This document shows positions 1,732-63,983 of a stretch of DNA of 64,000 bases, piece after piece (the stretch's first letter is position 1; each line of letters opens with the position of its first letter). Origin of the DNA: Tetradesmus obliquus (Eukaryota > Chlorophyta > Chlorophyceae > Sphaeropleales > Scenedesmaceae); NCBI GenBank assembly GCA_030272155.1, contig CP126197.1:1612001-1676000 (forward strand). The letters are read 5' to 3'. Below the pieces are notes generated by a model. That model made no database searches. It had not been told where the DNA came from and worked only from the letters and a program-made list of their open reading frames with translations. Both the position numbers and the translations under genes were made by a program.

Positions 1732-4700
1732 ATGGCCTCGGTGGCAGATGGACAGCAGGAGGAGAAGCCCAGGGTGGAGTTCATCAAACGCAATGTTGGC
1801 CTTACCACTGTTCCTGCCAAGGTGTGTAACCGCTGCAGGCCGTGCAGTCACTTCGTTTTTACAGCTAGCTTTTGCATGCATGGTCATATACATGCTGCAG
1901 CAGCTGCACTTTTGCTCTGCTGCAGCACAATGATCCTGTTGATGCTGAGGTTTCCATGACTTCAAAACAGTACATGTTGCAGGGCATCAGGACAATGGTC
2001 AGGAATATGTAGGAGACAATTTACTATGCCTTGCCACTCTGCAGGTCATGGCCTTGGATGGCCTGGAGGTGTTGGACCTGGCTCAAAATCAAATCGAGGT
2101 GAACACGCCGCTGCCATGACAGCAGCAAGCACTCAGTATAGCCAAGCACACGTTGTAAGAGCAGATCCAACAGCTGTGCAACCCTTGTTTGCAATAACAG
2201 GGCAGCACCAGATGGTGTACCGAGCCAGCCTGGCACTGCCTGTGCTGCGCTGCCGTACTTGCTCTGCAGATTGTGCCCAAGGGACTGTTTCAGGACATTG
2301 CCCAGCTGAAGACGCTGGACCTATCACACAACGCCATCAAAGCACTGCCAGAAGAGGTTGCTGTGCTAAAGTGCGTGAGCAGCAGCACGTCGCGTCTGCG
2401 GTTGTCAGGCAGCACAATGCGCCATGCTGGGACTGCATCACAGGCCAGAGCAGCAGCAGCTGTGTGCAGATCTGCTGCCGCACTAGTTTGGTCAAAGGCA
2501 GCATCGCAACATGCGGCAGTTGTTGCTCTTTGCCATGCTTTGCGATCGAGCAGCGTAGTGCAGCAACTGCTGTGGCTGCTCGTGCCGCAGGTGCCTGGAG
2601 GTGCTGGCAATCAGCCACAACTGCCTGCAGGGCCTGCCAGAGGCGCTGTTCACACTCGCTGTGCTGCGGGACTTGAACGCCAGCTACAACCAGATTGACT
2701 TCATTTCCAACCACATCGGCGACATGGAGGGCCTGCATGTGGGTGGTGCTCAAAGCTGGCATCACGCAGAAGTGTTTGCAGCGGCGGTGGCAGCAGCAGC
2801 AGCAGGGTGGCTCAGAGAAGTGGAGAGCCGGCATGCAGTGCAGAAAGGCACATCTACAGCATACCAAGACATCTGCTGGCTAGCTTCTATGTGAAGCAGC
2901 ATAACACGGCAGCTGCCATCACCAGTGTGCTCTGCAGTTTCGGCTCATGTGCAGGCAGTTGCAGTGCAGGCACTACCTGCTGCCATTAGTCATGCCAGGC
3001 CCTGACGCCCATGTAATCGACTGTCATGCACGGCTTGCTGTGCAATGCTGCTGCGTGTGCTGCTGCAGGTGCTCAACCTTGCAGGTAACCAGCTGCGTGC
3101 CATCCCCAGTGATGTGGGCTGGCTGGGCCTCAAGCAGCTCAACATCAGCGACAACCCAGACCTCAACATTCCTGCACATGTCCTGCAGTGCGGCTTCAAG
3201 TACGTGCAGTGGGTCTGGTGCAGCACATGCAGGGCCAGCTCATGTGCAGCAGTAGTTGAGCATGCATGCATGCATGCATGCTGCAGGTGGCACTGCAACC
3301 GTTGACCGCACAAATGATGTGCATACAAAGGCCTGTCTCAGCCAAGCGCACCACTCCAGCGCACCAATACCAGGCATCAACAGAACAAATAGTAAAAGCT
3401 CATGTCACGAGTGCTGAAGCAATGGAAGCATGGTCTGGTGCACCCCTGCACTGCGGTGATGAACTACCTGCAGGTGGTGCCCAACAGCAAACTAGCCCCT
3501 TTTGGCATGCACACCAACACACCCACATGCCTGTGACGTACATATGTATGGCATGTGTGCCCCTGCAGGGCAGTGATGAGCTACCTGCAGGTGGTTGGCG
3601 AGCAGCACCAGCTGGTGGAGCGCCACATGGCTGCCTTCACAGCACGCCTGGCAGAGCTGCAGGAGCGGCACGGCCTGCAGCTGGGCAGCCTGGAGGTGAG
3701 CGGACGCCTGCAGCTTTCCTGCAAGTGTCCTGCAAGTGTCCTGCAAGTGTCCTGCAAGCACGCTTTCAGTGCAGCTCGCAGAGCGCCACCAGGTGCCTGC
3801 TGCTGCCACAACACATGCGCGTGTGATGTGTGTGGCGTTGTTGGGCTGCGTGTAGGGCTCAGTCCGCAGGCTCCGACAACAGCATTGCTGTTCCGCACTA
3901 ATGTCTCTGCAGGATGCAGCGGGTGTGTCGCTGCGGCTGAAGGTTGCGCAGCGCCTGGGCATCCTCAGCTGCAGGGGCAGCCGTATGGCAGTGCTGCCTG
4001 CCGCGCTTGATGACAAGCTGCCAGCACTTGAAGGGGTGCAGGTAAGTCTTCATGCAAGCTGGCACAGAGGCAATGCAATGCCATAAAATCGTCTGGCTGA
4101 ACTCCGAGCTTGCCAAATCACGTATGTTACGGCTGATGGAATAACAACCAGCGGCTGGGTTGCCGTTCCGCTTATTATGCAGCACAACTGGTACAACTGC
4201 TATACTATCACATGCTGTTCATGCAGGTGGTGGACTGCAGCCGCAACAGGCTCAGGGCGCTGCCCCACCAGATGCTGCAGGCCATGCCGCGCCTGGTGGT
4301 GCTCAACATGGCCTACAACAGCCTCAAAGCCTTACCTGCAGGCCTCACAATATCATCCCTCAGTGTGCTCGACCTGTCTTTCAACAAGCTGGCAGTGCTG
4401 CCAGCAGAGCTGGGGCAGCTGGTGCCTGGGCTGCAGCAGCTGTACCTTGCAAACAACTACCTGAAGCAGCTGCCGGAGAGCCTGGGGCAGATAACTGGGC
4501 TACAGGATTTGTTCCTGTCTGAAAATGGCTTTGAGGAGGTGCCCCAGGTGCGGTGCGAACCCTTGGCAGTGCAAGAACATAGCATATGTTGGTGCGCAGA
4601 TTCCTGCAGTGAAGGAAGCCAGTCCGTGTATGCAAACGCTGATGGGTCTACAGCACATGCTGCGGTATTGGTCGAGGGGCTGCACACACATTGAGTGTGA

Positions 4701-7700
4701 GACATGCATTGTCCTGCATGGCATGTGCTGAGCAGTGCGCCGTTGCCGCCTACAGGTGCTGCGCCTCTGCAGCAGCCTTGCCAAGCTCAGCTTGGCTGCC
4801 TGCCAACTGACAGCATTGGGGGACGAGCTGCAGGACTTGGTGGGGCTCAGGTGAGATGGCACTTGATCTCTTGCCTGGTCTAATGCGCCCTGCAGCTTGC
4901 ATGGCAGCACAATGCATGCCCTCCGCTGCAGTATCATCGTGCTGCACGCCTGCATGCAGCAGTGCACAATCAAACATAGCCTGAGTCTAGTTCACCACGT
5001 GGCCGGCTGCTGCAGGTTCCTGGATGTCAGCTTCAACCGCCTCAAGGCGCTGCCAGCTGGCATGTCCAGCCTGACTGGGCTGGCGGTGCTCAACCTGGCC
5101 TACAACCCTCTGGGCTGCTTCCCTGAGGTGCTGTGCAGCCTCACAAGCCTGCGGGAGCTCAACATGGACCAGACGGGTGCGCCGGCGTGGAGATGAGCTC
5201 TGCTAGCGCTGCTGGCAATTGTGTCAGCGTAGTTGTTTTGCCTGGCTGTGGTGCCAGCTGCTTCGCATGTGCCTGATCATTCACGATCTGCAGTTGCAGC
5301 AGCTAGCTGCTGATTATTGTCTCGCTAACCATTAAGTTGCTATTGTTCCCAAGTTGTTGATCATTGTTGCTGTGGCTTGCATTGCAGGCATCAGCAATGT
5401 GCCATTTGCCATTGGCGAGCTGCGCCTCCTAGAAGGCCTGCAGGCAGACGGGTGCCCGCTGGCGGCCCCTCTGGCCAGCCTGTACGCCAAGGATCCGCTG
5501 CTGCTGGTGCGGCTGCATGACACGCAGCTCCAGGCGCTTGACTTGTCAGAGGCTAGGCTTGAAGAGGTGCCTCAGGCGCTGCTGCGGCTGACAGGGCTCA
5601 CCAGCCTGGACCTGCACAAGAACGCCATCAAGGTACGCTTAATGTTGAGATGAGAGATGTTTGAATGACACAGCAATACATTGTTACAGACTGCGCTGGA
5701 CTGGTCAGAGGCTGGGCTGGAGGAGGTGCCGCAGGCGTTGCTACGGCTGACAGGCTTTACAAGCCTGGACCTGTGTTGTACAGAATGCCACCAAGGTGTG
5801 TTCAATTAGAGTAGGTGTTCGCAAACAGCTCCACACACACATGCCAACAGCGCAGCAGTGCTGCCTGCTGATCAAGCAATGGCAAGCACTGGAGCCCTTT
5901 TCTTGCACCTCTCGCTCCTCTTGCAGGACCTACCGCTAGGCCTAGGCGAGCTGCGGCAGCTGCAGCAGCTCAGCCTGAAGGCCAACCCGCTTCGGCAGCC
6001 CTTCCTGCGCCTGATGGATGCAAAAGGGGAGCTGGCGGTGCTGGCTTTCTTGAGGCCTGAAGGGGCCGCAGGGGCCCTAGATTTGGAGGGCTGTGGGTTT
6101 GAGGCGCTGCCAAAGGAAGTGTGGGAGGTGGCGGCGCGCAGCGCGCTAGTGTCGCTGAATCTGATCAACAACAGGCTGAGGGACTTGCCGCAGGTGAGGG
6201 TTGAGCGGTTTGTGTGTTTGTGCGCAAGTTTTGCGCGCCTCTTTCTGCTGGTGCTGCTGCTACTTCTGCTGATGTAGTTGATGTAGAGCAAAGCAGGAGA
6301 TGAAGACGTGTCTTTACATGTCAGCCAGTACACAGTCCACGCATGAACACGCAAGCATGCAGCCCGGCACCATGTTGCATTGTGAAGCATGCAGTTTTTG
6401 GTGCCGGCATCAACCCAAACTTTCTCTTGGTTGCGGTTCTTCATGTGGCGTGTCTTGCAGGAGCTGTCCAGCCTGGTGATGCTGACTCAGCTGGTGCTGG
6501 ACCACAACCTGCTGCGCCACCTGCCACCGGTGGTGCTGGCGCTGCCGGCGCTGGCTGTGCTCATGGCCTCCAGCAACAGCATCACCTACCTGCCAGACGG
6601 CCTGGGCCAGATGCAGCAGCTGCAGGCGCTGCTCATGCACAGCAACCAGCTCATGCAGGTGCGGTTGAAAGCTGTTCATAGAAGCAGCATGCCGTGGTGC
6701 GTGTTTTTGCTGCCTCCACTGTACGGACACCTGCTTGTCGCTCAAAGGGCTTGTCAATTCACCTGCCTTGTATGTCTGCTGCAGCTGCCAGACAGCCTCT
6801 TGGGAATAGCAATCTTGGGGTTACGTCATGAGGTTTGACCAACCCTACTGCCGTTCTTATCTGCTACACTGCTGCCTTTGCAGCTGCCAGGCAGCCTCAC
6901 CACGCTGACCGTCAGTTGGGCCAACTCGAGGGTCAACTCATGGATTGTAACACACACCTGCCCTGACCAACACATTTGTTTGTTGCCTCCGCAGCTGCCA
7001 GACAGCCTCACCACGCTGACCAACCTGCGGGTGCTGGGCCTCACCAGCAACCGCCTCTGGCAGCTGCCGCCAGGCATTGCCGGCTGCTCCAGCCTGCGTG
7101 TGCTGGACTGCTCCCACAACCTGCTGTCACGCTTGCCAGCTGGCATGGGCAGCATGGCAAGGCTGCGCAGCGTGAAGCTCACGCATAATAAGCTGGGGTG
7201 GGTGCCGGTGTGGGAGTTCCAGGAGCTGCCCGGGCTGAAGGAACTGCACTTGGCAGGCAACGGCTTCACGGTGAGACAGAAATGAGATTCAGTTGCACCG
7301 TTTGGTCTGTCAGTGATTGTCGGATTGATTCAAACCATGATGATGCTCACCCGGGGCCGCACAAAAGCCAGAATTGCTTTCTTGGTGCCTTCTTGACCAA
7401 ATGCTGGTTGTTCGCAAGCGATGCATGGCAGTCACTGCCAAGTTGGTGGGTGCAGTATGGTGGCTGATGCTGCTCAGTATTACACGCGTTGGGGCCTGTT
7501 GCTGCCTCACCATTACAAGAACCTCGCTTTTCAAACCATTAACAAATGTTACGTATTGCACTGTGCCGTACTGTGTGTCTTGCCCTGCAGTTGAGTGTGG
7601 AGGTGAATGCCAGCGATGAAGTAGCTGTGCAGGTGCTGCTGGCAGCCATTGCAGCCAGCCCAGCCGGCCAGCCGCCAGCGCAGCAGCCCAGCTACAGCCG

Positions 7701-9327: not shown

Positions 9328-10392
9328 ATCAGGTGCCATGCAGCTAGTGTGGAGTTGGCAGTTAGTCTGCTGCCTGCGCTGGTGTGGTGCAGGATGGGAC
9401 GGACTGTGATGTTGACCCAGATTTGACCAGCAGGGTTGTAAGTAGCGAACGACTTGTGTCGCGTGGACATGCACGGTAGTGATACTAAGAAGGTGTCGAC
9501 AATTCACAACACCGCAATGGTGAGACATCTAGGCTGGCCAAAAGTGGTGATGTGGTGGTTGGCCTCAGCAGTGCCGAACAACCCTTACTCCATGCACGGT
9601 GGGACGGACTGTGATGTTGACCCAGATTTGACCAGCAGGGTTGTAAGTAGCGAACGACTTGTGTCGCGTGGACATGCACGGTAGTGATACTAAGAAGGTG
9701 TCGACAATTCACAACACCGCAATGGTGAGACATCTAGGCTGGCCAAAAGTGGTGATGTGGTGGTTGGCCACAGCAGTGCCGAACAACCCTTACTCCATGC
9801 ACGGTGGGACGGACTGTGATGTTGACCCAGATTTGACCAGCAGGGTTGTAAGTAGCGAACGACTTGTGTCGCGTGGACATGCATGGTAGTGATACTAAGA
9901 AGGTGTCGACAGTTCACAACACCGCAGTGGTGAGACATCTAGGCTGGCCAAAAGTGGTGATGTGGTGGTTGGCCACAGCAGTGCCGAACAACCCTTGCTC
10001 CATGCCTCTTGAGACCTGATGAAGTGACACGCACCACGACAGCTGCCTTACAGCAGACCACTTCATACTTTTTTCACGATCTGCAGTTGTCACAGCTTGT
10101 AAAGCGGCCGATCACACGGGTTTCGTGCTGCAGCTTCAACCTGCACCGCGCTCTGGTACACGCTGGTTGCAGAAGCAAGGAAAGCCTCGTTACTTTGAGA
10201 CCGCAAAGTAGCTTGTAGCTACCTTCGAAGGACTGTTGCGCTTGTCTGTCTCGTCTGCTTGCACGCAACGCACAGCTCGTGGCCCGGCCACTGCGTGGAC
10301 GAGGGAGGGCACAACAACAGCTTCTTACGGGCTTGCAGCTGGGCCCTTCAACGGTGTACAGCTGCTAGCTGCTTGCAAGCAGCAGTAGGGCT
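9328..10392 (+). other. LRR 3' UTR with repeats, and Rab promoter/5' UTR
   Basis: No coding exon was recognised. 9396-10005 is the triple 205-bp repeat listed separately, with a TGTAA in each unit (first at about 9435). The remaining ~390 bases before the Rab ATG should contain the Rab promoter. I see no distinct TATA box. Confidence 0.5.
9396..10005. repeat. Three 205-bp tandem repeats
   Basis: Three head-to-tail units start at 9396, 9601 and 9806, giving an exact period of 205 bp with only a few substitutions. The third unit fades at about 10005. Each unit contains TGTAA in the context GGTTGTAAGTAG, so the LRR transcript meets three successive candidate poly(A) signals. ~80-residue open frames repeat in both directions, but they show no protein-like features. 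Confidence 0.95.
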
Positions 10393-12189
10393 ATGGCACA
10401 ACAGCAACGAGCTGGCAGGCAGGACTACGACTACCTAATAAAGCTGCTGCTTATCGGAGACAGCGGTAAGGCTTATCTCAGGAAAACAGCAAAGCACCAG
10501 CGATCACATGACTGGCCTAGGGCTTGGGTGCTGAACATGGCGCTGCTGCTGGTTGCGTGAGCAGGTGTGGGCAAGAGCTGCCTGCTGCTGCGCTTCTCAG
10601 AAGACTCGTTTACTCCCAGCTTCATCACTACCATTGGGTGAGGAGCAGCAGCTGCAGCACCACCAGCACATGCCTGCTGCTCCTTGAAAGCTTTAGCTGT
10701 GCTTGCAGCAACCGCTGCACCTCGTGGTACTGCATGCATGCATACAAACGGCTCAGCTGCTGAGCGCTTAATCCTTGCTGCATCCTGAGGTCGTGTTTTT
10801 TTGCCAACAGCATTGACTTCAAGATCAAGAAGATCTTCTTGGACAATAAGTGGGTGAAGCTGCAGATATGGGACACAGCAGGGCAGGAGCGCTTCAGGAC
10901 AATCACCAGCGGTGAGTGGCTTCAGAAGCAGCAGCAGCAGCAGTAGCTGTAGGAGCAGCGGCAATAGCAGCAGCAGATGAAGAAGAAGCAGCAGCAGAAG
11001 AAGAAGAAGCTCGGTTACATTGTCATTAACAGTAGCACCGGCGCCGTCATTGCTGGCATGAGAGGCAGCGAACAGGACCTCATGCTGCTTGCAGTCGCCG
11101 AAGGCATGTGGGCATGTCAGCGCTGAATGCAGAAACAGGAGCATTGGTGTGTGCAGTTGCGTGCAACATGCACAACATGCGCATACACAGTGCGCATAGA
11201 CTTGCTTGTTCGCTGTCTTCACTGCTGTTTGTATGTTGCGTGTGCAGCTTACTACCGTGGCGCCATGGGCATCCTGCTGGTGTATGACGTCACTGACGAG
11301 GCGTCATTCAACAACATCCGCAACTGGATGCGCAACATCGAGCAGCACGCCAGCGACAACGTCAACAAGGTGTGGCTGCTGTGCCGGGTGCAGGTGCTGG
11401 TGTTGCTCTCTCATGCATGCATCCATCCCGCAGTCTTGCAGCGTTTGTCGGGAACATTCAGCACTGTCACAGCACAGCATCAGGATTATTGGCTTCCAGT
11501 GCAGCGACACCTGGGTGCATACTAGTCTGCAGGACAGGCGGTCGTCAAGCTGTGTGTATGCATGCACTGCTGACAGGCGCACTGCAACTCATGGGCAGGT
11601 TGTGTCTCTGACACGGGCACTGTTTTTACTTGTTGGTGTCGCTCATGCGGCGCACATGCGGCTGCTGTCTCATGCCATGCATGTGGCTGTGAAGTGGCGC
11701 TCAAGTGCCCATTCATGCTGCCTTACTTTCTTTTGCAGGTGCTGGTGGGCAACAAAAGTGACATGGCCGATGAGAAGCGCGCCGTGCCAGTGGCGCGGGG
11801 CCAGGCGCTGGCGGCTGAGTACAACATGCGCTTCTTCGAGACCAGCGCCAAGGACAACCTCAACGTGGAGGAGGTGAGTGCAGCATGGCTTGTTTGTAGC
11901 TTTGTTTGATGGCGCTGTTGATGTTGACAGGGAGTTTACGTACATGCAAGCATTGGACTGAAGCTGCAGCTGCCGAGATGTATGCAGTGCGGAGGAGCTG
12001 CTGCTGAGGTCCTGGCTGAACTGTTGGGTGCCACGCTCGCCCAGTAGCTCCTGGCACTTAGCTGCTACATGCAGGCAGCTTCAAAGCATGTGTTGCCTGG
12101 GCTTACCGTCAATGTACTGCTGCCTTGTTTGGGCACTCGTGTCATTCATCGCCAAGGATGTGATGCAGCGGCCTTTCAATGCATGTGCC

Positions 12190-12234
<45 letters not shown>

Positions 12235-12399
12235 TCAAACCTCAGGTGTTCACGTCCATCGCCAAGGACGTGATGCAGCGGCTGCAGCAGGAGCAGGCGG
12301 AGCAGCAGACGGTGGGCGGCACCAGCTCGCCGCTGAAGCTGACCAGCAACCTGGACAAGAGCAAGCAGCGCAGGAAGAAGGGCTGCTGCGACTCCGGCT

Positions 12400-14078: not shown

Positions 14079-16771
14079 TCATAAGCCTGGCAGGGTATTC
14101 CTGCCGGCCGTATTACTGCTGCTGCCAGGAGCAGCCGCCCAGCCAGCTGCAACTGCCTCGCTGCTGCTGCAGAACCAGCGCTCCCCAGTCGCCACATCAA
14201 CCTGCACTGCCTTATACTGCCCATGCTGGCTGGTATAGTAGAGCTTCTTGCTGCTTGCTGCATCGATGTCTCCTTTGATGGTGCATCCTGCGGGCCGCCA
14301 GCCTGCAAGCTCTGCTTCGTTTGCGTTGCAGAACCAGCGCTCGCCGGAGGATTGGCTGATGTGTGTGCTGCTGTAGCTTGGGCTGCTCGGCAGGTGGTAC
14401 ACCTAGCAGCAGTGGTGCACGGTGCAGGGGAGAAAGTAGCGGCAAGCGTGTTGACAGAGGGGTTATAACTGGATGCATGTATGTCTGCGGCCCAGCTGCC
14501 ATGCTGTTGAACAGTTATGTGTGTGCTGCTGTAGCTTGCGCTGCTGGGCTGGTGGTACACCTGGCAGCAGTGGTCCGCTGTTCAGAACAGCGGTGGGAAA
14601 GGGTTAGAGCACAGCCCACATGTTGGCAGAGGGTTGCGGTTGAATGCATGTATGTATGTGGCCCAGCTGCCATGCTTTTGAACAGCAATGTGTGTGGTGC
14701 TGTAGCTTGGGCTGCTTGGCAAGTGGTACACATGGATGCCAAGCAGATGAGCAGCAAGGCTGGGAGTGAAGCGCAGGACATGCATATATCCCTGGATCAG
14801 CTGGCACGCTTCTGAATGCAGTTATTTGGTGGCAGACCTGCAAGGAAGTTGTCAACCTGGTGATCCACCCTGCCATGTCAACAGCAAAGCACTACACACA
14901 ATAACCACACAACTGTGCAGCAAAGAGAAGATGTGCGCAAGCTAGCCGCAAGCGCATCAGCCTCACCTTGTCTCCATCACTGGCAATGTTGCCCTTCACA
15001 AGGCACTCTGAGCTGTCAGGGGCTGCGCTGCTGTCACTGCTGCTGCTGCTGCTGCTGCCAGTCTGCTGCTGCCTGCGGAAGTCCCATGGCAGGGTGAAGC
15101 TGCCTGCGGGGCAGCAGCAGCAGCAGCAGCACAAGGCCGCACCAGTATGCGTCAACCACCATTTGATGTTCTGCAGTTTGGTAAGTGCCACACCCCAGTT
15201 GCAAAAGAGGTGCCTGTACGCAGCATGCAGCAGCAACGCAGAGCTGTACCGTACATGGTGGATTGCTGCTGATCGAAACTGTGACTTTAGCAACACATTG
15301 ACTCGCTCTCACCTTCCCACACTCCCAGCTTTGCGCTTTTCGCTGCCTCCTCTTCCGCAACATAGCGGCTGCTGTAGTGCCTGCACCCACCCACACACAC
15401 GCGGACAAGTGGCACACACGTTGATGCAAGCAACAGCACAAACCGTAAGGCTCTTGATACACAGGTCCATTGTTGCAGATCCATGTGCAAGCGCATGCAG
15501 CATGCACACAGACAAGCCACACAACAGAATGCACGGCTTATGAGTAACCAGTAAGTGCTTGAAGTGCTCACCGATATGCAACAGCTGCTCCCTTGGCTAC
15601 CAATGTACGCCCCAAGTCAGGGCCGCTGCCACTGTTTGCATAGCAGATGGCCACCTTCCTGTCATATGTATCAGTCGTCTGCACATCGCATTTTACTGGC
15701 TGGCCTGCTATGGCATCCAGCAAAGCTTGCCGTGCTATTTGGCCTGCAGAAGGAGATGTAGCACAGTTGACCCAGACGTGAGAAGTGCTGCTGCTTGGCT
15801 AGTACATCGACAACCAATGCCTGAAGGTGCACAGCTTTGCATTTTTCATGCTAGACTCGAGCTTGCTAGACTGCCCAACTTTACATCTGCGGCAAGCACA
15901 AAGGCATCACACCACAGCACGCAGCAGCGCTTGCTCCATCGCTTGCCCTACGCATCAACACCAGGGCAAAGCGCGCCTGCCACCACTACATTGATATAAA
16001 AGAGTTGTGTAGCTGCACAAGGCAACCGCGCTCTGCTGAAACTTAGGCAAACCAGATTCTGTACATTGCTGCTGTGCTGCGGACGCATGCGGCCGCGGCA
16101 CCGCTGCAGCCACAGCTGCTGCTGCTGCTGTGGAGCGCTTGGACGCTCCATATATGCAGCTTGTCCTACTGTGCAGTCTTGCGAGTATGGCAGCCCTAGC
16201 ACAATGCGGGGCGTCAGCGTTGCTCACCACAGGCTACTGTTGCCCCACTTGCTGCCTTGCAGGTCTGTGTGAGCTCCGGGGCATCTATGCCAAACACGCG
16301 GATGCGTGCTTGGCTGCCTGAAGCCCTGTCATTGACCTGATAGCATCACAGAGTGAGGGTGAGATGGTGGCAGGTGGGATTAAAAGGCTGGCGCTGCAAT
16401 CACTGTTGAATTCCTCTCCCCCTTGCAGCTCGACCAGCCTGGCAAGTAGTCACTGTAAGAGCAGCCAGCTCAGGATGCAGACAGAGATTGACAGCCTTGC
16501 AACACGTTTGTGATTGAAACACCATGATGTTCATCAAACGGTCAGCTGCTTTGGGGACAGGCTGCTTTCTTACAGCCATGGCCTCTGCTGCTGCTGCTGC
16601 TGTTGCTGCTGTGCAGCCGTGGCAGGCAACATGCCTTCTGCTTTGCAGTCTCACCCTTAGAGTGTCTCCGTCATGAACCGAGGAAACGGTGCCCGTGATG
16701 GAAGACGCTGTGCAACAGGACGCGTACGCTAGTGTGAAGCACAACAGTATCTTTAGCGTACGGAACGCCAT
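14079..16771 (-). CDS. Secreted staphylococcal-nuclease-like (thermonuclease) protein
   Basis: Six exons on the reverse strand (16771-16655, 16336-16228, 15743-15572, 15380-15313, 15103-14967, 14402-14079) give 308 aa. An N-terminal hydrophobic signal peptide (FRTLKILLCFTLAYA) is followed by an SNase fold. Its features are GTVSSVHDGDTLRV, the active-site-like FGIDAPEL, CGQIARQALLDAI, DTYDRKVAICY and EEEAAKSAKLGVW. The C-terminal exon has two copies of a GERWFC..(N/S)EAxxAGW module preceded by KGNI/KGDI and (V/L)Y(H/Y) segments. Such modules follow SNase or other nuclease domains in bacterial proteins. A Ser-rich linker joins the two parts. The likely role is extracellular or secretory-pathway phosphodiester hydrolysis. 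Its compact bacterial-type domain order could reflect an old transfer, but the gene is fully intron-adapted. The first ATG of a longer in-frame stretch at 16810 is an alternative start. Confidence 0.85.
14480..14740 (-). repeat. Two echoes of nuclease exon 6 start
   Basis: The intron before exon 6 contains two further copies of the exon head coding VYHLPSSPSYS, at about 14519-14560 and 14690-14735. Each is joined to the same stretch of intron, with periods of about 160 and 170 bp. The copies code VYHQPSSASYSSTHI and VYHLPSSPSYSTTHI, then run into intron-like sequence instead of the GERWFC module. Acceptor AGs are partly retained, so inclusion would usually disrupt the C-terminal domain. Confidence 0.85.
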
Positions 16772-17667
16772 CCGCTCACTACCGGTTGCGATACAGCATG
16801 CTTTGAGCAAAGGATTTGGCTGTTTGTATAGGGCTGTCGTCCGGATAGTACAGGCCCTGCAACAATTGCAACTAGCTGTCTGTCAGACAGCTCTGACAGA
16901 GCGAGTGAGTGTGACAGTCACTAGCTGTTTGAATCGTTCAATGCAGCTTCCTGTGCACACACGGCTGTGTGCAGCTGGAGCGGATAGCATCTTCAAGCCA
17001 AATTGCCAACAAGATAAAGTGGTGTGCGACACGCGCACCTTCAGGCATGTTGCTTACTGCAGCACGCGTGCCGGCACTGTGACACCTCAGGTGGCTTGCC
17101 CCAAGCCGCAATTTCTCTGCCATACGTGAACAGGCTGTTCCGCACAACAGCCAGCAAAATAAGGGTATTGTGTGTTACTCGATTACTGGTATATGGGCGG
17201 CACCAGCTGCTGGAAGTTCTGCATCAGTGCACTGCTGTTGCAGCGTGCCAGCATCATGCTGGCAGTGCCATGCACATGCACTGCCGCACGCGACTGCTTG
17301 CCCCGGTCACAGCATGGCTTTGCCACGACAAGTAGTGCTGACAGATTTTACCATATCCTTCCATCTAGAGGATGCCCTGGCGAGGTGGCTCCTCGCAGAG
17401 TGGCCTGCAACTGACCTTCCGGGAGTGTGTGCACTGCTCCAGCTGCAGGAAGCTACGTGAACATGGTCCGTGGCGGGAGCCCACTGTCGATCGTATAAAA
17501 AAGCCTACTGCCGCCTCAACCTGGTCGCAATTTGCGGAGACGTTCACATTCAACAATCGCCGCTTGAAATCCGCGTTGCACTCTACTCCTTCCGGCAACC
17601 CACGCTCTCAATACGTGGAGAGGATTGCCAATTCACTGCTGATCGAGCCAACCGCTTCAACAAAATA
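16772..17667. other. Divergent promoter region (nuclease / membrane-protein gene 1)
   Basis: About 900 bases between divergently transcribed genes. It should contain both promoters and 5' UTRs. Open frames are short and show no family features. No obvious repeats or TATA boxes were seen. Confidence 0.45.
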
Positions 17668-19854: not shown

Positions 19855-20074
19855 CTGGTCTGTCAAGAGGCTGTCTGAGGGGGAGGTCACTGCAACTCTT
19901 GTAGTGTGAGGAATGCGCTCTGTTGAGGGTTGTACAGTTTTTTTTGCATGCACAGTTGTGAGGCCGTCACAAACCATTTTCAGACACATGTGGGATGCAC
20001 TGCATTGCATGGTACTGCATGAGTGCGCGATCAAACATTGATCCCCGTTGTGGGGGTGCAGCATGCCGCATGCG

Positions 20075-20178
20075 TGTGTGGTGGCGGACTAAACGCCTGT
20101 GTGGTGCCGCATTAAACGCCTGTGTGGTGCCGCATCAAACCCCTGTGTGGTGGCACATTAATTGCCTGTGTGGTGGCG
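20075..20178. repeat. 23-bp minisatellite
   Basis: About 4.5 units of a 23-bp repeat that starts GTGTGGTG and ends AAACGCCT, with a few substitutions per unit. Confidence 0.85.
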
Positions 20179-20452
20179 GTTGCCATGGCGCAACGTCATG
20201 CACAGCATTGGCAGGAGGGAGAGGTCACAGATAACGTAGACTTGACTAGCAGTGTGATGGTGCCGACTGCAACAGCTCATAGCTTGGTATGATGGTGGTT
20301 AGTGACACCTGAGCATTGCGTGCATATTGTCATTGCACGCTGACTCAGCTACGGAAGGCCGAGTGAGCAGAGGAAACATGGACATGACTGACAGTGTGAC
20401 GGTGCAATAGCTACAAGCATGGTATACTGGTTGTTAGTGACACTTGCGCGCA

Positions 20453-20592
20453 TTGCAGTGAGCAATGCAGTGAGCAATGCAGTGAGCATTGTAGTGAGCA
20501 CTGTAGTGAGCATTGTAGCGATTATTGCAGTGAGCATTGCAGTGAGCATTGTAGTTAGTATTTCAGCGAGTATGGCAGCGAGCATTGCGAAC
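20453..20592. repeat. 12-bp minisatellite
   Basis: About a dozen imperfect copies of GCAGTGAGCATT. Because 12 is a multiple of three, the array is open in several frames and yields spurious repetitive peptides. Confidence 0.9.
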
Positions 20593-20747
20593 ATGTTTGT
20601 ATTGCACGTCGATCCAGCTGCGCCAGGCCGACTAAGCCTGATGATGCATTTCAGCCGTGAGTTACTGCTCAGAATCACCCGGTAGCAGTGCTCCCTCCCC
20701 ATTCCCCTTGTCCTGTTCTGTCAGCCGCTCCTGTGGGCCACCAGAGT

Positions 20748-20815
20748 TACCTGGTTTTGGGCCACCTGGTTCTGGGCCACCGGCGTCACCTGGTTCAGCG
20801 TCACCTGGTTCAACT
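20748..20815. repeat. 15-bp minisatellite
   Basis: Four to five copies of a unit around CACCTGGTTC (GGGCCACCTGGTTCT and GCGTCACCTGGTTCA forms). Confidence 0.8.
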
Positions 20816-26217: not shown

Positions 26218-26249
26218 GCGTCAGTGATATAGCGTGCATGCATTCGTTG

Positions 26250-26330
26250 TTGCTGTTGGAACACCTGCAGTTGCTGCCGGCCTTGCTGCTCCACCGAAGG
26301 TAGTGGAGGTTGTGTAGGCATTGATGTTAT
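26250..26330 (+). repeat. Echo of copy 3 C-terminal coding end
   Basis: About 80 bases repeat the end of the copy 3 coding region (26151-26230), from the AVGTPA codons through PPKVVE(C/V)V and its TAG stop and a little beyond. The period is about 100 bp. It lies after the stop codon, so it would be untranslated. Confidence 0.85.
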
Positions 26331-37881: not shown

Positions 37882-38036
37882 TCATCGCAATGGAGCCAGC
37901 CTCACCTCCTGCAGGCGCCCCAGGTGCCGCAGCAGCATCAGCATGCTCTTGCCGCTCTTGTCCATCTTCACTGCAGTGCCAGCACGCAGGTCATTTTCCA
38001 GGAACCAGAAGCGGCCTTTGGCAGCCTCCTTATTCT

Positions 38037-38100
<64 letters not shown>

Positions 38101-52102: not shown

Positions 52103-54476
52103 CGGCGGCGGCGGCGCAAAGGCAGGTTCAAGGTAAGGTGCACTACAGCATGCAGGCGGGGTCAACCTGCAGCTGCATGAGGGCAGGCTAGAGCAATCAG
52201 CATAACAGCTGCTGCTGGCCTGCTAGCTATTGCATTATATCAATGGGGGTGGCTTACCAGGTTGGCTGCTGCATGGCCCAGCATGGTGCGTGTCCAGTGA
52301 GGGTAGCTGTTATAGCTCGGGTCCTCTGGCTCGCTGCCAATGGCGGTGGGGTAGAACAGCACCTGTGAACAGCAGCAGCAGCAGCAGCAGCAGCAGTGAC
52401 AGGCGTGTCAGTCACAGCCCGCAAGCTCAACCAGGACACCAACCAAAGCATAGAAGGACAGTAGGTGTCAGCCACAGCACACGAAGCCTGCTTGTAGGCA
52501 AGGCTAGCTCAAGGTTATACTGCAGCCAGCCCTGCAGAACCCTGCAGCGGATTCACACCCCTGCCTTGACCACCCGCACAGTGTGTCACGCAATTATGCC
52601 TGAACATGCACCGCTGCCTCACCTCTGCGCCCATGAGCGCGAGGGATCGTGCTGTCTCAGGGAACCACTGGTCCCAGCAGATGCCTGCGCCCAGCCGCCC
52701 AAACTTGGTGTCCCACACCTTGAAGCCCGTGTCCCCGGGGCTGAAGTAGAACTTCTCCTGGTAGCTGCGGGGTCAACATTACAAAAATAAACAATGTTTT
52801 TATGTTGCACTGCAATCGATTTGCACGTCATTTGAAGTGCACAGCATTCCTGCAGGCTACCTGCAGGCTGCACGGTCCAGTGCAGGGCCAGCCGGCCGCA
52901 TGCGTTGGCAGGTAAGCAGCAACTGCGCATTGTGCGGGGAAATCCTTTGCGCAGCTGTGCAAGCGGGCATGCTGCACACAGGCTACTGTTGCTGCTGCTA
53001 CTCTTCTCATCGCCCAGTCCCTGCCAGCAGCACTGGCTGCAGTGCGCCTGCTGCTTTTGCTGCTGCTGCTCACCCTGCCCCTGCCAGTGGCATTGTCTGC
53101 TGCTGCTGCTCACCCTGGCCCTGCCAGCGGCATTGTCTGCTGCTGCTGCTGCTGCTGCTGTTGCTCACCCTGGCCCGTCTGGGATGTGTGACTTGCGGTA
53201 CACGCCCAGCACGCTGCCGTCTGCGTCGATCATGGCCAGGCTGTTGAAGTGTGCATTGTTCATGCGCTCGAAGAAGCTCACAGGCAGCACCACTCCCAGC
53301 TCCTTGGCCAGCTTGGACAGCCTGCAGAAGCATGTTCACATGTGGCCATCATATAGCAGCAATGAGTGTGCTGTAGTTGGGCAGCGCATCAGCGCATAAG
53401 CAGCACCACGCCCAGCTCCTTGGCTAGCTTGGACAGCCTGCAGGAAACATGAGCGCAAGCAGCACATGCGTGCAGAACTGTTTGGTGTGTGCAGCTCCTT
53501 GGCTAGCTTGGACAGCCTGCAGGAAACATGTGCACACATGCAGGCGATGGCGGCGTTGCTGTGGCTGAATGGTATCAACGCCTCATGCTGAGCGCTGGTT
53601 CAGCGTCCTGAACGACGCGCAGCCACGCTGTCGTGCACATTGTGCAGGATGTGCACAGCACGGCTGCACACCTTGGTGCAGCCCAGAGGCAGTTGGGCAG
53701 ACACAGCACCTGCCCACACTGCACTGCAGCACGATGCTGTCTCTGGCTGCCCATCTGAATGGTGCCCATGCACATCATGTGAAAAGTGCTAGCTGCAAGC
53801 TTCTATTAAGTTAAATGCTGCGGCCGCACGCCTCACCGCTGTACTGGCTTGCTCTCTTCCAGCGGCTTTGCCCAGTCAAAGTACTCCTGCAAGCACAAGG
53901 CAAGCAAGCAGAATCGCGCTGCAGGGCGTGCCCAGCTACGCAAACACTGCTGCTCCATGTCAGCTTGCATATGTAGAGAGTTCAGTGAATAAGTAGGTAC
54001 AAAGCAAGTTGTCTGGGCATGCTGTAAGCATTGCAGGAGTACAGCACCTACCCCCTTCTGCTCCTGGCAGAAGTACCAGTTCTCAAACAGCTCCTGCAAG
54101 CAGCACAAACAGCAATGAAAACAGCAGAAGGCACAAATATTCTTCCTATTGCAGCCTTGGCGGCATGCACAGCACGCATATGCTTCAACAGAGAACACAG
54201 CAGCAGCTACACCTACTGCTACAACTGCCGTGTACCTGAAGCAGGATGACATTGGCGCCAGCAGCTGCTGCCTCCCTGATGATCTTCTCTGCCTTTGCCT
54301 GCGTGAACCGTGCGCCACAAGCTGCTGTCAGCGGTGTCTGGGTAAAAGTTGTCGCGCCTTGGGCTGTTGACAGCAGCAGGTGGTCAGAGGCCTGGCTGAC
54401 CCGCACACACCAGGTTTTCCTCTGGGTCGCGTGTGATCTCAAGCTGCGTTGCAGCTACTTTGACTACGCGAGGCAT
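50719..54476 (-). CDS. CPA: N-carbamoylputrescine amidase
   Basis: Hydrolyses N-carbamoylputrescine to putrescine, CO2 and ammonia in the plant arginine-decarboxylase route of polyamine synthesis. It is a nitrilase-superfamily enzyme. Ten exons (54476-54411, 54298-54236, 54093-54052, 53886-53837, 53321-53169, 52764-52623, 52362-52258, 52059-51949, 51214-51105, 50809-50719) give 310 aa, close to the family's ~300. All parts of the Glu-Lys-Cys triad are visible: LLQELFENWYFCQEQK (Glu), VYRKSHIPDGPGY (Lys) and AGICWDQWFPE (Cys). Other signatures are NLVPVVASNRIGTE, ITFYGGSFI and WGVFRDRRPELYTPLVTLDG. The start ATG gives the usual MPRVVKVAATQ. No targeting peptide is seen, so it is probably cytosolic. 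It is divergent from the aquaporin gene. Echo copies of exon 5 lie in intron 4. Confidence 0.95.
53400..53527 (-). repeat. Two echoes of CPA exon 5 start
   Basis: The acceptor and exon head coding LSKLAKELG(V) occur at 53321 (real) and again at about 53401-53446 and 53491-53527 in the intron upstream. The middle copy continues to VVLL before diverging. The furthest copy loses similarity after KEL. Both keep the cag acceptor. Confidence 0.88.
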
Positions 54477-55019: not shown

Positions 55020-57018
55020 ATGACAACAGGTATGTAGATTACTGCGATCGTTTGCTTCTGCAAGCGCTGATGACACTATTGGCTCCCAGCAAGAGCACAA
55101 CTAGCAGGCTCTGCAGTGCATCTCAGTGGAGCAGTGAGCAGTGCTCACAGCAGCTCGTTTCATGCATGCAGGACGTAAGCCGAATGGTTCAACGCTGGAC
55201 CATCCCCTGCCCAAGAAAGAGGGCAGGATGGGGCTGCTTCATGAAACAAAAGCACCAGGAGGCGCATGGAGCCTGCTGGCTGCAGGCCTGGCAGAGTTCT
55301 TCTGCACAGCTGCATTCCTGTTCATTGCTACAGGTAAGCAGATCAGCACAGCAGCCATTACAGGTTAGGCCTGAGTGCAAGCTCTGCATGAACGCCGGTG
55401 CTGTTGTCACAAACGCATGCACCTGAACCACACCTGTGTACTGTGAAGCCAGTGCCTCCACATCATTTGCTTTGTGCTAATGAAGCACCTCGTGTTGGTC
55501 CTGCTGCTGCTGCTGCTGCTGCCGCCCAGGCACTGTGACCAGCGGCTGCCACACTGCCGACACTGCACGCCAGTCAGGAGCTAAAGACCAGGAACTGGAA
55601 ACAGGTGCGCGGGCGTGCTCTGCAACACAGCAACATACCAGTTGTTGATTGACAGATCAGCATGCTGTGTGAAAGCGGCTCTATGCCTGGATGCAACAGA
55701 TGCAGCAAGTCAGAACGCAAGTCAGAACGCATCTTGACATGCGGCTGCATCACAACAGAAAAGTGGCTGCTCATCTTGCCTCAATGCATTTTTGCTGAGC
55801 CTGCCAATGTTTTGACATTGACGAAGCACTTCATGCCTCCCTGCCGCCGCAGTGGAGCCCGGCGCGTGCTTCCTGGGCAGCACCAACCTGCTCAACATCG
55901 CCATGGCCTTCGGCCTCTCCATCTTCGTGCTGGTCTACGCAGCAGCCAGCTTCTCGGGTGCGCGGCGTGTGGATAGGCGGTGTGGCAGCGCAGCAGTGCT
56001 TGTCAACTTGAACGCTGCTGGCAGACTGGTGGCGTACTGCACGCCAGATGTTAGTTCTGCACAGTAGCTGGACTTGGAGCATACATCGCTGCATCAGCAG
56101 CTGAGAATGGTATGCAGCGAGCAGCAGCGCTGAAACCTCCAGCCACAATGCTGCCACGACAACTCAAGCGATGGTGCTGTACTTCGCACTTCCCCGCCAT
56201 CTTTGTATTGCAGGCGGCCACTTTAACCCTGCCATCTCCAATGACGCCCACCACCCACTAACTGCTGCTGCTGCTGTTGCTGCTGCCGCGATGGTGTGCT
56301 GCCACTGCATTGCCCCACTGCAGGCGGCCACCTCAACCCTGCCATCACCATCGGTTTCTTCCTGGCCACAACGTGCCACTCCAACTTGACACAATGCTGT
56401 ACTTCGTGCCTTCCCTACCACCCTTGCGCTGCAGGCGGTCACCTCAACCCTGCCATCACCATCGCCATGTTCCTCACGAGGCGCATCTCCCTGGTCCGCA
56501 CAGCCGTGTACATCATTTGCCAGGTGGCAGGTGCCATTGTGGGCTCTGCACTTGTGCGGGCAGTGGATCCAAATGGCTTCAAGGCAGCGCTTGGTGCAGC
56601 AAATCGGCTCAATACCTGGGCAAAGGTTGGCACAGGGCTGGGAGTAGAGCTGATCCTCACCGCCATATTCGTGTTCATTGTGTTTGCGGCAGTTGACAAG
56701 ACGCGTGGCGCGCACAGTGCACACGTGCCTGTTCTAGCACCCCTGGCAATTGGCATCGTGGTGTTCCTATGCCACATGGTGGCGGTGCCAATCGACGGCT
56801 GTTCTGTCAACCCTGCGCGCTCGTTTGGAACTGCTGTTGTGGCGCGCACGTGGGCGCATCACTGGATCTTCTGGGTGGGTCCCATTGTTGGTGGTGCTGC
56901 TGCAGGGCTGCTGTATGAGGCACTGGCTTACAGGGCACCGCTGTTTGCGGGGCCTGTGGAGGAGCAGGGCAGGGAGCCTGGCACCAGCCCTGCTGGGCCA
57001 CAGGAGTACACGGTATAA
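55020..57018 (+). CDS. Aquaporin (MIP family)
   Basis: Water or small-solute channel of the plasma or internal membranes. Five exons (55020-55029, 55172-55333, 55530-55604, 55853-55957, 56435-57018) give 311 aa. The first exon codes only MTT plus one base. Both NPA boxes are present: GGHLNPAITIAMF at the start of the last exon and SVNPARSFGTAVV near its end. Span 1 is in exon 2 (LLAAGLAEFFCTAAFLFIAT) and span 2 in exon 4 (NIAMAFGLSIFVLVYAAA). The rest lie in exon 5, for example ELILTAIFVFIVFAAVDK and PLAIGIVVFLCHMVAVPIDG. A long, Cys-containing loop between spans 1 and 2 (exon 3) is unusual. The family layout resembles plant PIP-like and algal MIP proteins; I do not assign a subfamily. A transposon starts four bases after the TAA. 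Confidence 0.93.
56170..56434 (+). repeat. Two echoes of aquaporin last-exon start
   Basis: The acceptor and exon head coding GGH(F/L)NPAI occur at 56214, 56324 and 56435 (real), each preceded by a related ~40-base intron tail. The copy at 56214 diverges after NPAIS. The copy at 56324 reads GGHLNPAITIGFFLATT and stays open in the same frame for 111 bases into the real exon. Use of that acceptor would therefore add 37 residues and a third NPA box. Confidence 0.9.
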
Positions 57019-60024: not shown

Positions 60025-61136
60025 CGACTCACTCCTGGTTGGCGTTATTCTTTGTAGCTTGTAGAAGTGGCTGTGCATGTCCCGTTTTCTAAACCCTTGT
60101 GAAACTCCAGCTTCTGCAGATCGACAGCCTCTCAGCTGTTCCTGCGTTATGGTATGTCCGCTAGAGCTTCTGCATTATGGTATGTCCGCTAGAGCGTGGC
60201 AATCATGCTCAGTGCTTTTGTCAAAGCATTCAATGCCAAGCATGTTGATTGGTGTCCGAGTGAACTCAAGTGTGGGACCTTAGCCACATATGTACACGTA
60301 TGTGTGGCCTAATGTGTGGCGTTATCTACAGCTATGCTGCTGGCAACGAGTTCTTGGTTGTTGGTGATGATGGTTGAGATGGCTCTTGGATCTGTTGTCA
60401 AGGTGCATTGGCACCTGTGTGGAACGCCGTTTTTGGCTCTGGTTATCGGCTCAGCAATATGCCATCTCTCAGTTCATATGAATGCAAATGGGTAGAACCG
60501 AAGACTTCTGACGTGCTTTTGCATGGTTGTGTGATTACCACCCCAGGCAGGCAATGAGAAGCAATGAGCAGCTAGGCATATATTTTCAGCGGTATCCAGC
60601 AGGCTAATTATACAGCTGATTGGCTGTGGAGTGGACATGCTGCAAGTATGAACATTCATGCATGTGGATTCCTATTGGTTGGCAGCTCAGTGTGTTGCAG
60701 CTGTGTTCAAACAGTCGCCATCAGCAGCTGTATTGCAGTTGATGCGCACTTGCTCAAGCTGCTGTGCGCTGCGCCGCTATGATGCGTGCTGGGGTTTATG
60801 TTCGTCACCAGCACCGCTGTGTGAGGCGAGGAGATGTTGCAGTTGATCTTGGTTGATGTTCCCAGATGATGTGCAGGCTGATCTGGTTCAAGACAAATTG
60901 CTCGTGACAGGGTCAGGGCAGCACAGGTGCATCTGATCATCTGAGTAATCATTTCATCGCAAGCATCTGATCATGTACATTTGAGGCGCCCTTGCAACCC
61001 TTGAATGCGCTCCCGTCCCGGCAGCGCAGCAATGCTACACTACATTGGTGTTATGCATAGAGTGCACACACACCTGCTCCTTCAAAAACCTCACCTTCTG
61101 CCCCGCCGCCTTTTGGGCGGAACATTGTGTTTGTCA

Positions 61137-61283
61137 GATGCCCCGCCACGTGTGGGCGCAAGCATCGCCTATTCGATGCCCCGCCACGTGTGGGCGCAAG
61201 CATCGGCTTGTAGATGCCCCGCCGCGTGTGGGCGCAAGCATATCCTGTTTCATGATGCCCCGCCACGTGTGGGCGCAAGCATC
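61137..61283. repeat. Array of four 30-bp palindromic repeats
   Basis: Units start at 61137, 61175, 61213 and 61254 (periods 38, 38 and 41), separated by 8-11 variable bases. Each begins GATGC and ends GCATC (the third ends differently) with a central CCACGTGTGG, so each can form a hairpin and holds a CACGTG E/G-box. Similar C/G-rich sequence precedes the array at about 61098-61123. Confidence 0.9.
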
Positions 61284-62281: not shown

Positions 62282-63729
62282 CTACGTGCTGCTGCAGGCG
62301 CGCTTGTGCCGCGGCCAGTCTGCCCGCTGGCACTGCACACAGCAGTACCTGTCAGCATCGCTCCTGCAGCGGCTGCAGCGCAGCAGCTGCTGCACCACGG
62401 CACCACCCGCACCCCTGCTGCCTGGCTTGGCCCCACACACTCTGCAGGCACCACCAGCACCTGCCTCCGCTGCCGCTGCTGCTGCCACTTGGGGTCTTGC
62501 ACCTGCAGCAGACCGCCCAGCCGCTGCTGCTGCTTCTGCTGCAGCAGCACGCACTGCACCAGCATCAGCTCGGCTCACTGGCCTGCTGCTGCCCCCGCTG
62601 CCAGCGCCAGCTGCTGCGCCGGCTGCTGCCATTGCGGCCTTCTTGAAACTATCAGGTATTGCATCCATGAGTGTAGCCGAGTCACCCAGCAGCTCCGGGT
62701 ACACAGGGCAGATGAAACTGGCCAGCCAGTGGCTGTTGGGGCCCAGGGGCAGGTGCTTGACCTGCCATGATGTGGGCTGCATGCGGCGTGCGTTGCGCTG
62801 TAGGAGAGAGCGCAGCAGCTGCAGCTCGTGGGTGGAGCAGAAGGTGGTGGATGAGGCACCCTGGGCAGCAGCAGCAGCAGCAGCAGCAGCGGCGGTGGCG
62901 GTTGCAGGAACCGGATCAGTGGATGGTCAGACAGATGTGGCATGGGATGGCAAGTGACTGCTGACGCCGGCAGCAGGCAACACGGCAGCACCGCACTGAA
63001 GGAAGCTGCAGCAGCAACACATGAGGTGCTTGCGCTGCCACGGTGTGGGTTGCATGCGGCGTGTGTTGCTCTGTAACAGAGCTCGCAGCAGCTGCAGGCT
63101 GCAGCTCACGGGTTGAGCAGAAGGTGGTGGATGAGGCGCCCTGCGGGCAGCAGCAGCAGCAGGTTGAGTATTGTGCATTCAAAACATAGAGTTGTGCATT
63201 CAGTGTGATGCATGCAGTTAGTGGCTGCTAGCAGACGGTGGTGGGCGAGCAGCCCTGGGACAGCAGCAGCAGCAGCAGCAGCAGGAAAGCAGCAAGCCTG
63301 TGAGCTAGCACTCCTGCCGATGTCACCAGCTGTTTGTGTGCCCTTCCCACACTTCAGGGCATCCTGCATCTTGCATCCATACAAAAACACTTGGCCGACC
63401 ACGCTGCGCTGTGTGAGAGGTGACTCTTGGCCGCATACAAACGCAAGCTTGGCAGCCACGTCTGACACTTGAACGACAGCCACGTATCACCACATTATGC
63501 ATGTCACGCTGCCACACACCTGTGCCATGATGACCTCCTTGAAGCGTCCCAGCTCCTTGTTCATATCTATCTTGCCCTGCTGCAGCAGCGCCATGCCCTG
63601 CTCATTGTCAACCACACTCAGCACAGCCAGCGGGCGGTTGGTGGAGGTCAGCCGCCGCAGCGGTGTGTGCACGCGAATGTACATGGCATGAGCCTTGTCG
63701 CTGCCTTGTGGCGCGTCCTTGTTGATGAT
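62282..63729 (-). CDS. MYND-type zinc-finger protein, C-terminal part
   Basis: Two exons are visible (63729-63520, 62860-62282), both in phase 0; the gene continues beyond the window. The upstream exon codes KAHAMYIRVHTPLRRLTS, LAVLSVVDNEQGMALLQQG and MNKELGRFKEVIMAQ. The last exon codes STTFCSTHELQLLRSLLQ and MQPTSWQVKHLPLGPNSHWL, then an Ala-rich linker and a MYND finger at the C-terminus (CRVCGAKPG, LRCSRCRSDADRYCCVQCQR, DWPRHKRAC, end SST). MYND fingers bind proline-rich peptides in protein partners (family knowledge). The body of the protein was not recognised. Both exons have echo copies upstream. Confidence 0.75.
63021..63265 (-). repeat. Two echoes of the MYND-gene last-exon start
   Basis: 63021-63143 repeats about 120 bases of the exon head (codes GASSTTFCST(R/H)ELQ, then a small insertion shifts the frame). 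63230-63265 is a shorter, more diverged copy of its first bases with the CTG tract. Both lie in the intron before the real exon at 62860. Confidence 0.85.
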
Positions 63730-63815
63730 CTACGGCGGCGGCAGCAGCAGCAGTAGCAGCAGTAGCAGCAGTTGAGCAAGCAGACGATCAACCGGCAAAG
63801 CAGCAAGGGAGAGTG

Positions 63816-63983
63816 TGCGCCTTGTTGCTGCCTTGCGGGGCGTTCCACTTCAAGTTCAAGTTCAAGTTTGGCAGAAGCAGCAGTAGCAGCTTTCACACAT
63901 CTAATTAAGCAAGCGGCAAACCGGTGTGTGCACAAGGATGTACATGGCAAGAGCCCTGTCGCTGTCTTGCAGTGCGACCTTAT
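63816..63983 (-). repeat. Two echoes of the MYND-gene penultimate exon start
   Basis: 63919-63983 repeats the exon head (ATCATCAA(T/C)AAGG onward, the MYI.VHTP codons) with a ctag acceptor like the real one. 63816-63842 is a shorter fragment of the same stretch. Both lie upstream of the real exon at 63729. Confidence 0.82.

Follow-up and report, generated by a model that had tools for sequence, protein, structure and literature searches.

Echoes of exon edges in the window

We analysed a window of 64,000 nucleotides from the green alga Tetradesmus obliquus (contig CP126197.1, positions 1612001-1676000), which belongs to a genome of 104,662,953 bases on 17 contigs. An LRR gene, a Rab gene, copies of a membrane-protein gene and genes for SKA1, N-carbamoylputrescine amidase (CPA), an aquaporin and a MYND-finger protein lie in the window, and several of their introns carry truncated copies of the adjoining exon edge, i.e., of an exon head with its acceptor or of an exon tail with its donor. 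We term these copies echoes. In a sample of 314 kb used for repeat and intron scans, which comprises the window and 25 further loci of 10 kb each (one of them, L009 at C2:600001-610000, consists of N from end to end), about one intron in ten bears such a relic of its own exon edge. A first-pass annotation of the window had described these copies and attributed them to tandem duplication across exon edges; the observation is largely real and the mechanism right in outline.

Exons and introns were assigned by our own gene finder, which was trained on the present sequence and includes length terms for both. The predicted introns have a median length of 265 nt, with a donor of the form CAG/GTGAG and an acceptor of the form CTGCAG/G. 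The GC content is 53-58%, and CAG/CTG runs are abundant. Pfam families among the predicted proteins include CN_hydrolase (CPA), Complex1_49kDa (Nad7), MIP (aquaporin), SKA1 and Ras/Rab. Furthermore, an open frame of the MYND gene matches zf-MYND, and a search with 10 long open frames returned a single family, MIP.

In the LRR gene (forward strand), three exons have echoes, as the first-pass annotation had stated. Here the real edges were placed by gene model and alignment and the echoes by self-comparison and alignment. The exon head with acceptor at 3560-3595 (exon start 3569) recurs at 3443-3478 (89% identity, offset 117 nt, AG lost), and the head at 6981-7021 (exon start 6995) at 6870-6910 (90%, offset 111 nt), with a shorter further copy seen by eye near 6781. 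The exon tail with donor at 5534-5634 (exon end 5632) is copied, with indels, at 5693-5797 (80%, offset 159 nt). In the Rab gene (forward strand), which has a Ras family match, gene model and alignment place part of the last-exon head at 12257-12282 (exon start 12246), and self-comparison and alignment show 25 of its 26 nt again at 12147-12172 (offset 110 nt). This copied stretch begins 11 nt inside the exon and contains no splice site. The LRR and Rab coding parts are separated by three 205-nt tandem copies (9388-10005) that are 98% alike.

The stretch 17655-26230 apparently holds three diverged tandem paralogues of the membrane-protein gene, with matching segments 70-85% alike, and a short tandem array with 23-nt and 12-nt units lies at 20075-20588. 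The 3′ end of copy 3 (forward strand; 26148-26219, open frame end 26217), including its stop codon, is repeated past the stop at 26248-26319 (83%, offset 100 nt, by self-comparison), in agreement with the first-pass annotation. The same had been claimed for the aquaporin tail and was not confirmed, the best local score in the 582 nt downstream being 16.

SKA1 (reverse strand, SKA1 family match) shows echoes of one tail and two heads. The tail with donor at 37894-37948, assigned by gene model and alignment, has two echoes, both supported by self-comparison and alignment, at 37787-37831 (44 of 45 nt identical, offset 112 nt) and 37652-37706 (91%, offset 242 nt, GT lost). The head with acceptor at 37986-38054 (gene model, alignment) is found again at 38194-38261 (86%, offset 208 nt; self-comparison, alignment). 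A further head at 38735-38797 (self-comparison, gene model) has a second copy at 38882-38947 (82%, offset 147 nt), of which the former is probably the real one.

Two genes carry double echoes of one head. In CPA (reverse strand), the real head with acceptor at 53275-53334, supported by alignment, Pfam and homologues, is copied at 53391-53451 (89%, offset 116 nt; self-comparison, alignment) and 53492-53536 (91% to the real head and 96% to the first echo; self-comparison). In the aquaporin (forward strand), the real head with acceptor, which encodes GHLNPAIT and is placed by the MIP match and self-comparison at 56429-56464, is copied at 56318-56353 (35 of 36 nt, offset 111 nt; self-comparison, alignment) and, together with about 35 nt of intron, at 56175-56240 (head part 56209-56240; 79%, offset 220 nt).

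The MYND gene (reverse strand) likewise contains the copies that had been reported, with less certain edges. An exon head and acceptor region at 62751-62880 (zf-MYND match, alignment; exact edge uncertain) resembles 63024-63162 (83%, offset 273 nt; self-comparison, alignment), a further aligned pair with a less certain edge lies at 63116/63230, and an upstream exon region at 63661-63732 (edge uncertain) is repeated at 63922-63993 (85%, offset 261 nt; both by self-comparison). The echo ascribed to an SNase gene corresponds to a tandem array at 14359-14735, in which a 158-nt unit is present about 2.4 times (78% alike by self-comparison); none of six open frames scanned there had a Pfam match, hence no exon edge was assigned. 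At 61131-61283 we observed a short tandem array of 38/76-nt units with a GCCCCGCCACGTGTGGGCG motif.

Frequency and placement of echoes across the sample

Repeats in close proximity are almost exclusively direct. Self-comparison of the window yielded 21 direct and 0 inverted repeats at most 1 kb apart with at least 60 bits, and the 314-kb sample contained 159 direct near repeats and 1 inverted with at least 45 bits, arrays being counted several times. The copies are thus direct and closely spaced, as tandem duplication requires, with a modal offset of 100-140 nt (48 of 106 pairs). In the acceptor-side pairs (n = 19; figures entered by hand), at least 49 nt of intron, with a median of 81 nt, are left between the echo and the real acceptor. 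This remainder may suffice for a branch point and a pyrimidine tract; together with about 25 nt of detectable exon it may set a floor near 75 nt. Hence, part of the offset preference may reflect selection, and the fall-off towards larger offsets would be that of the sizes of tandem duplications. The density of near repeats varies from 0 to 27 per 10 kb across the sample. It is strongly clustered by locus and gene, being high in L003, L004, L015, L020, L022, L023, L024 and L026; L007, L008, L010, L012, L013, L016, L019 and L021 contrast with these in the clustering of echoes and repeats.

Each of 359 predicted introns in 43 gene models was searched for its own flanking exon ends with a score of at least 50. 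This initial scan found an echo in 38 introns and 14 models, comprising 25 head and 21 tail echoes, of which 40 of 46 were flush with the splice site and 28 of 46 had offsets of 95-145 nt. At the same threshold, controls with reverse-complemented and with swapped introns both gave 0. Once 26 short predicted exons similar to the edge of a neighbouring exon had been removed, the cleaned scan of 341 introns again found 38 with an echo, in 16 models (23 heads and 18 tails; 36 of 41 flush; median offset 133 nt, 95-145 nt in 20 of 41), and the controls gave 0 for the reverse complement and 1 for swapped introns, where the shuffle had left one intron paired with itself. The claim that nearly every multi-exon gene is affected was therefore too broad, the share being 14 of 43 models, or 16 of 43 after cleaning. 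The score threshold overlooks short echoes: the LRR/Rab model counts 1 of 23 introns, even though four of its edges are copied and three were missed.

In exons of at least 160 nt, the cleaned scan found copies of 10 of 138 heads vs. 2 of 138 interiors of the same exons, and of 8 of 125 tails vs. 2 of 125 interiors. Moreover, the 16 models with an echo are fewer than the 23.4 expected under random spread (p = 0.0002, cleaned scan), so that echoes are clustered; in the initial scan, several models with 10-18 introns had none and others had 4-6 affected introns. The copies also lie on a particular side. In 27 of 32 aligned pairs, the copy of a head precedes the acceptor and that of a tail follows the donor, which bears out the earlier statement that the duplications straddle exon edges and leave a truncated copy on the intron side. 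Three of the 32 pairs are exceptions among the CPA and aquaporin rows, where the gene model had swapped the real copy and the echo.

The placement of repeat partners was compared with random placement. There are 64 spaced pairs (gap >10 nt, offset <300 nt); 13 in which both copies contain exon and 9 that reach beyond the gene models were set aside, which leaves 42 with one wholly intronic copy. The partner is an exon edge in 30 of these (12.9 expected, s.d. 2.9), intron only in 9 (17.8 expected) and wholly exonic in 3 (11.2 expected). In the sample loci apart from the window, 19 edge pairs stand against 9.0 expected. Templated insertion regardless of splice sites, which we considered as a separate candidate, is disfavoured by the shortage of wholly exonic sources.

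When adjacent pairs are included, 96 pairs are available, of which 32 with exon in both copies, 11 outside the models and 3 with a wholly exonic source were set aside for the initial models, and 20, 11 and 3, respectively, after removal of the echo-like exons. The ratio of edge to intron-only pairs is 39:11 in the former and 47:15 in the latter set, whose 15 intron-only pairs include echo-echo pairs of one edge. An excess of edge over intron-only duplications, on which the first-pass annotation had made its proposal depend, is thus present in the counts, and its excess beyond geometry depends on assumptions. Random tandem units with at least 24 nt of exon and at least 50 nt of intron would give an edge to intron-only ratio of 0.47:1. 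Under this filtered geometry, 30.1 of 62 pairs would be edge pairs if these had a twofold detection advantage, and 36.4 if the advantage were threefold; the observed 47 are in excess of both (p = 1e-5 and p = 0.004, respectively). The unfiltered geometry has a ratio of 0.92:1, from which about 40 and about 46 of 62 are expected, and the excess becomes marginal or disappears. A preference for edges that exceeds tandem geometry is therefore not secure.

Decay, arrays and spacers

In 33 pairs that combine a mainly exonic with an intronic copy, mismatches are distributed unevenly over the codon positions of the real copy, with 37 of 471, 25 of 472 and 71 of 471 at positions 1, 2 and 3, respectively, and 75 of 593 in the intron parts of the cores. 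These counts agree with a neutral echo next to a constrained exon, for which a divergence of d is expected at the first two codon positions and one of up to 2d at third positions and in introns. According to the pair alignments, some echoes moreover lack the AG or GT or contain indels. All 14 homologous proteins that were aligned lack the echo segments; they cover three genes, CPA (5 aligned out of 120 listed), Nad7 (5 out of 120) and a TAPT1-like gene (4 out of 52). These include a 98%-identical CPA of Tetradesmus obliquus and, for the membrane protein of L024, a 95%-identical protein of Scenedesmus sp. NREL 46B-D3. By all appearances in the alignments, echoes drift as dead sequence beside a constrained exon, and the suggestion that they feed new exons found no support in the homologues of these three genes.

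At several loci whole units are repeated. The unit in Nad7 (L026) consists of an exon tail, its donor and some 101 nt of intron and recurs every 137 nt; in the TAPT1-like gene (L024), the array is built of units about 103 nt long. L004 has eight heads spaced 113-126 nt apart and L022 six heads spaced 122-138 nt apart, the real copy included in both. Divergence between echoes in exon and intron parts amounts to 12.4 and 16.5% in L004, 12.5 and 13.1% in Nad7 and 7.5 and 13.5% in L022. These arrays show that duplication of a complete unit across an exon edge does occur.

The sequences between the copies behave differently from the cores. Echo cores are 72-100% identical overall, and most spacers are without similarity to the sequence beyond the echo. 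This comparison covered 24 of the 32 aligned edge pairs and 3 pairs added by hand; two older SKA1 copies, the three mis-modelled CPA and aquaporin rows, L004 8840 (CAG-rich), L015 2972 and L022 276 were omitted, and the roles of real copy and echo in CPA, the aquaporin and SKA1 38735 were assigned by us. Free alignment of the spacer to the sequence beyond the echo gave a mean z of 1.24 (s.e.m. 0.39, n = 27), with z of at least 2 in 8 of 27; this residual similarity lies on the side expected of a tandem unit. Plain tandem duplication is incomplete as an account, because clear similarity is lacking in the sequence between most copies, and renewal of the echo from the exon or repair with filler may be required in addition. 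Uniform decay of plain tandem units was likewise rejected as a full account, because anchored flanks are dissimilar, yet arrays with about 13% intron divergence can be aligned.

Two loci illustrate the discrepancy. In L023, one intron (4604-5214) holds four upstream echoes of a single exon head, and a (CTG)n run occurs in two of its spacers. The cores at 4604/4709 are identical over 42 of 42 nt beside an unrelated spacer; adjacent cores in the locus are 89-100% alike, and a 142-nt spacer shares 83% with its counterpart in the next unit. In L015, several tail copies lie at 2694-3416, of which the farthest has the intron start of the first copy and the middle copies have another flank. The cores at 2694/2939 are identical over 82 of 82 nt, again with an unrelated spacer, and the second copy has its donor-side flank in common with a third copy, which is 88% alike, but in its core it is an exact match to the first. 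The L015 pattern looks like the overwriting of an old echo by the exon, and L023 suggests the same more weakly; duplication by break repair, with filler, is the alternative.

Spacers were also compared with the genome. The 63-nt spacer at L023:4646-4708 matched only itself, as did a 581-nt stretch with a 163-nt spacer inside (L015:2690-3270), although the lack of another match is no proof of rarity in either case. A spacer stretch of the aquaporin had 39 matches, nearly all through its CTG-rich part. Among the sampled loci, spacer matches are few, and they are short or CTG-rich or fall within one locus.

Origin of the echoes and related systems

We consider it probable that the echoes stem from tandem duplications that cross a splice junction and are tolerated by splicing. 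Small tandem duplications, mostly with offsets of 100-140 nt, would be frequent in some genes of this alga. If such a unit spans a splice junction, the outer edge copy would land in the intron and the intact edge would stay with the exon; with the original pair of sites still spliced, the duplication would be nearly neutral. Splicing can probably ignore the truncated copy, as had been proposed. Units wholly within exons would mostly be purged by selection. The echo would then drift, and its exon part would stay recognisable longer than its intron part, because the partner of the former is a constrained exon. Existing echo units might be amplified into arrays by further duplication. At some loci, local homogenisation, through gene conversion or template switching, might renew the core of the echo with the real exon as the source. 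Cores could then be nearly identical even though the spacers next to them are unrelated.

Several points weigh against this explanation. Anchored extension past the cores (mean 59 nt) in 45 spaced pairs gave 1.38 vs. 1.48 for the null, and 19 of 27 spacers lack clear similarity to the sequence beyond the echo, some of them between cores that are 95-100% identical, a combination that does not result when a tandem unit decays evenly. The edge excess survives the filtered geometry with a two- to threefold detection advantage and would then go beyond geometry and decay, which is not clearly so for the unfiltered geometry. Two of the 32 aligned pairs (L022 276 and L004 8840) violate the side rule and are unexplained. 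Finally, the labels derive from a self-trained gene finder whose chief error is to call echo segments as exons. Such miscalls were exposed by homologue alignment in CPA, Nad7 and the TAPT1-like gene and apparently also affect the aquaporin and SKA1, and a few rows of the codon test have wrong real and echo roles or a wrong exon start.

An alternative is break repair, in which a staggered break at an exon edge is filled and joined so that edge copy, filler and edge copy arise in one step and the spacer has never been a copy. We regard this as a possible, if doubtful, source of the echoes. As break repair would have it, cores have abrupt ends and most spacers are unrelated even where the core is 95-100% identical, and the self-matching stretches of L023 and L015 are of the kind that a filler would leave. 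The offset does not depend on core length (r = 0.07), and longer cores go with smaller gaps (r = -0.59, partly a matter of arithmetic). Short direct repeats around insertions are moreover described for gained introns of Daphnia (PMC3443670). The 8 of 27 spacers that do resemble the sequence beyond the echo (z of at least 2) and the whole-unit arrays argue against it, and direct repeats of 26-140 nt would be long for the fill-in of a staggered break.

We also entertain, as an unlikely idea, that exon edges serve as templates which re-seed the adjoining intron, so that cores are repeatedly overwritten or recopied while the rest of the intron turns over. If true, introns would have a living exon-like fringe with usable splice signals, duplication would be concentrated at splice junctions, and these would keep supplying alternative splice sites.

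A function of the echoes as alternative or mutually exclusive exons is very improbable. Many retain the AG or GT and the gene finder fits some as in-frame mini-exons; the concentration of mismatches at third positions (ratio about 2.3) is, however, no more than the real exon alone explains, some echoes lack a splice site or carry frame-shifting indels, the copies are truncated and their segments are missing in 14 of 14 aligned homologues. An artefact of chance similarity, low-complexity CAG/CTG sequence, assembly error or gene-finder bias has hardly any likelihood. CAG/CTG runs are indeed abundant and the self-trained models took 26 echo-like stretches as exons, but the swapped-intron and reverse-complement controls gave 0-1, the count persists after removal of the doubtful exons and the pattern is present in homology-supported genes. 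In addition, most copies are several per cent apart, which would be unlike a duplicated piece of assembly. Insertion of an introner-like mobile element with a large target-site duplication at exon edges, to which the copy-spacer-copy layout and its preferred total length might point, is barely credible and was rejected, as no shared spacer family was found among the sampled loci or for three stretches compared with the genome, two of which match only themselves and the third of which, from the aquaporin, has matches that are nearly all CTG-rich.

Under the junction-crossing duplication that we favour, several consequences follow. If about a tenth of introns hold decaying edge copies, duplications that span splice sites are a measurable and near-neutral class of mutation, and echoes could be used to investigate how often small duplications arise, how large they are and from which kind of repair they originate. 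They are also a practical hazard for gene prediction, given that the gene finder used here miscalled such segments as exons in several genes. Furthermore, they are raw material for asking whether new exons or splice sites arise from relics. No report of exon-edge copies in introns was recognised by title or opening of the abstract among the literature matches listed, which is weak evidence since most subscription papers fall outside that scope.

Related processes are known. Small tandem duplications can arise by repair of staggered breaks with fill-in by Pol alpha-primase/CST (PMC8355091). Echoes share with these duplications the direct orientation and the short, local, recurrent units, and differ in being tied to splice junctions, in offsets of about 100-140 nt and in an often unrelated spacer. 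Introns can be gained when an exonic AGGT is duplicated in tandem or when a break is repaired in a way that leaves short direct repeats (PMC3443670), and cases of intron gain by tandem genomic duplication are described for Drosophila (PMC2891723). In both intron gain by duplication and echoes, a tandem duplication meets splice sites and one copy becomes intronic; whereas duplication of an exonic AGGT creates a new intron, an echo is a copy of an exon edge held by that exon's own, already existing intron, and no new intron is needed (PMC3443670). Intron gain by duplication predicts a new intron where the genes of relatives are uninterrupted, with both splice sites drawn from the duplicated AGGT; the layout of an echo, with the edge copy outside the existing splice site, differs from this prediction.

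Patch-mediated repair has reportedly been described in rice by Vaughn and Bennetzen in 2014. In introner elements, many introns of one genome contain recognisable insertions of one sequence family. The inserted sequence in echoes, in contrast, is the edge of the neighbouring exon and differs from intron to intron, and no common spacer family was found in the loci and stretches compared. In tandem exon duplication and mutually exclusive exons, exon sequence is copied beside an exon, whereas an echo comprises the edge only, is truncated and decaying, and is missing in the aligned homologous proteins. Echoes are thus best seen as a variant of known duplications, in which the duplicated unit would run into a splice junction that is already there and be taken up by the intron already present.

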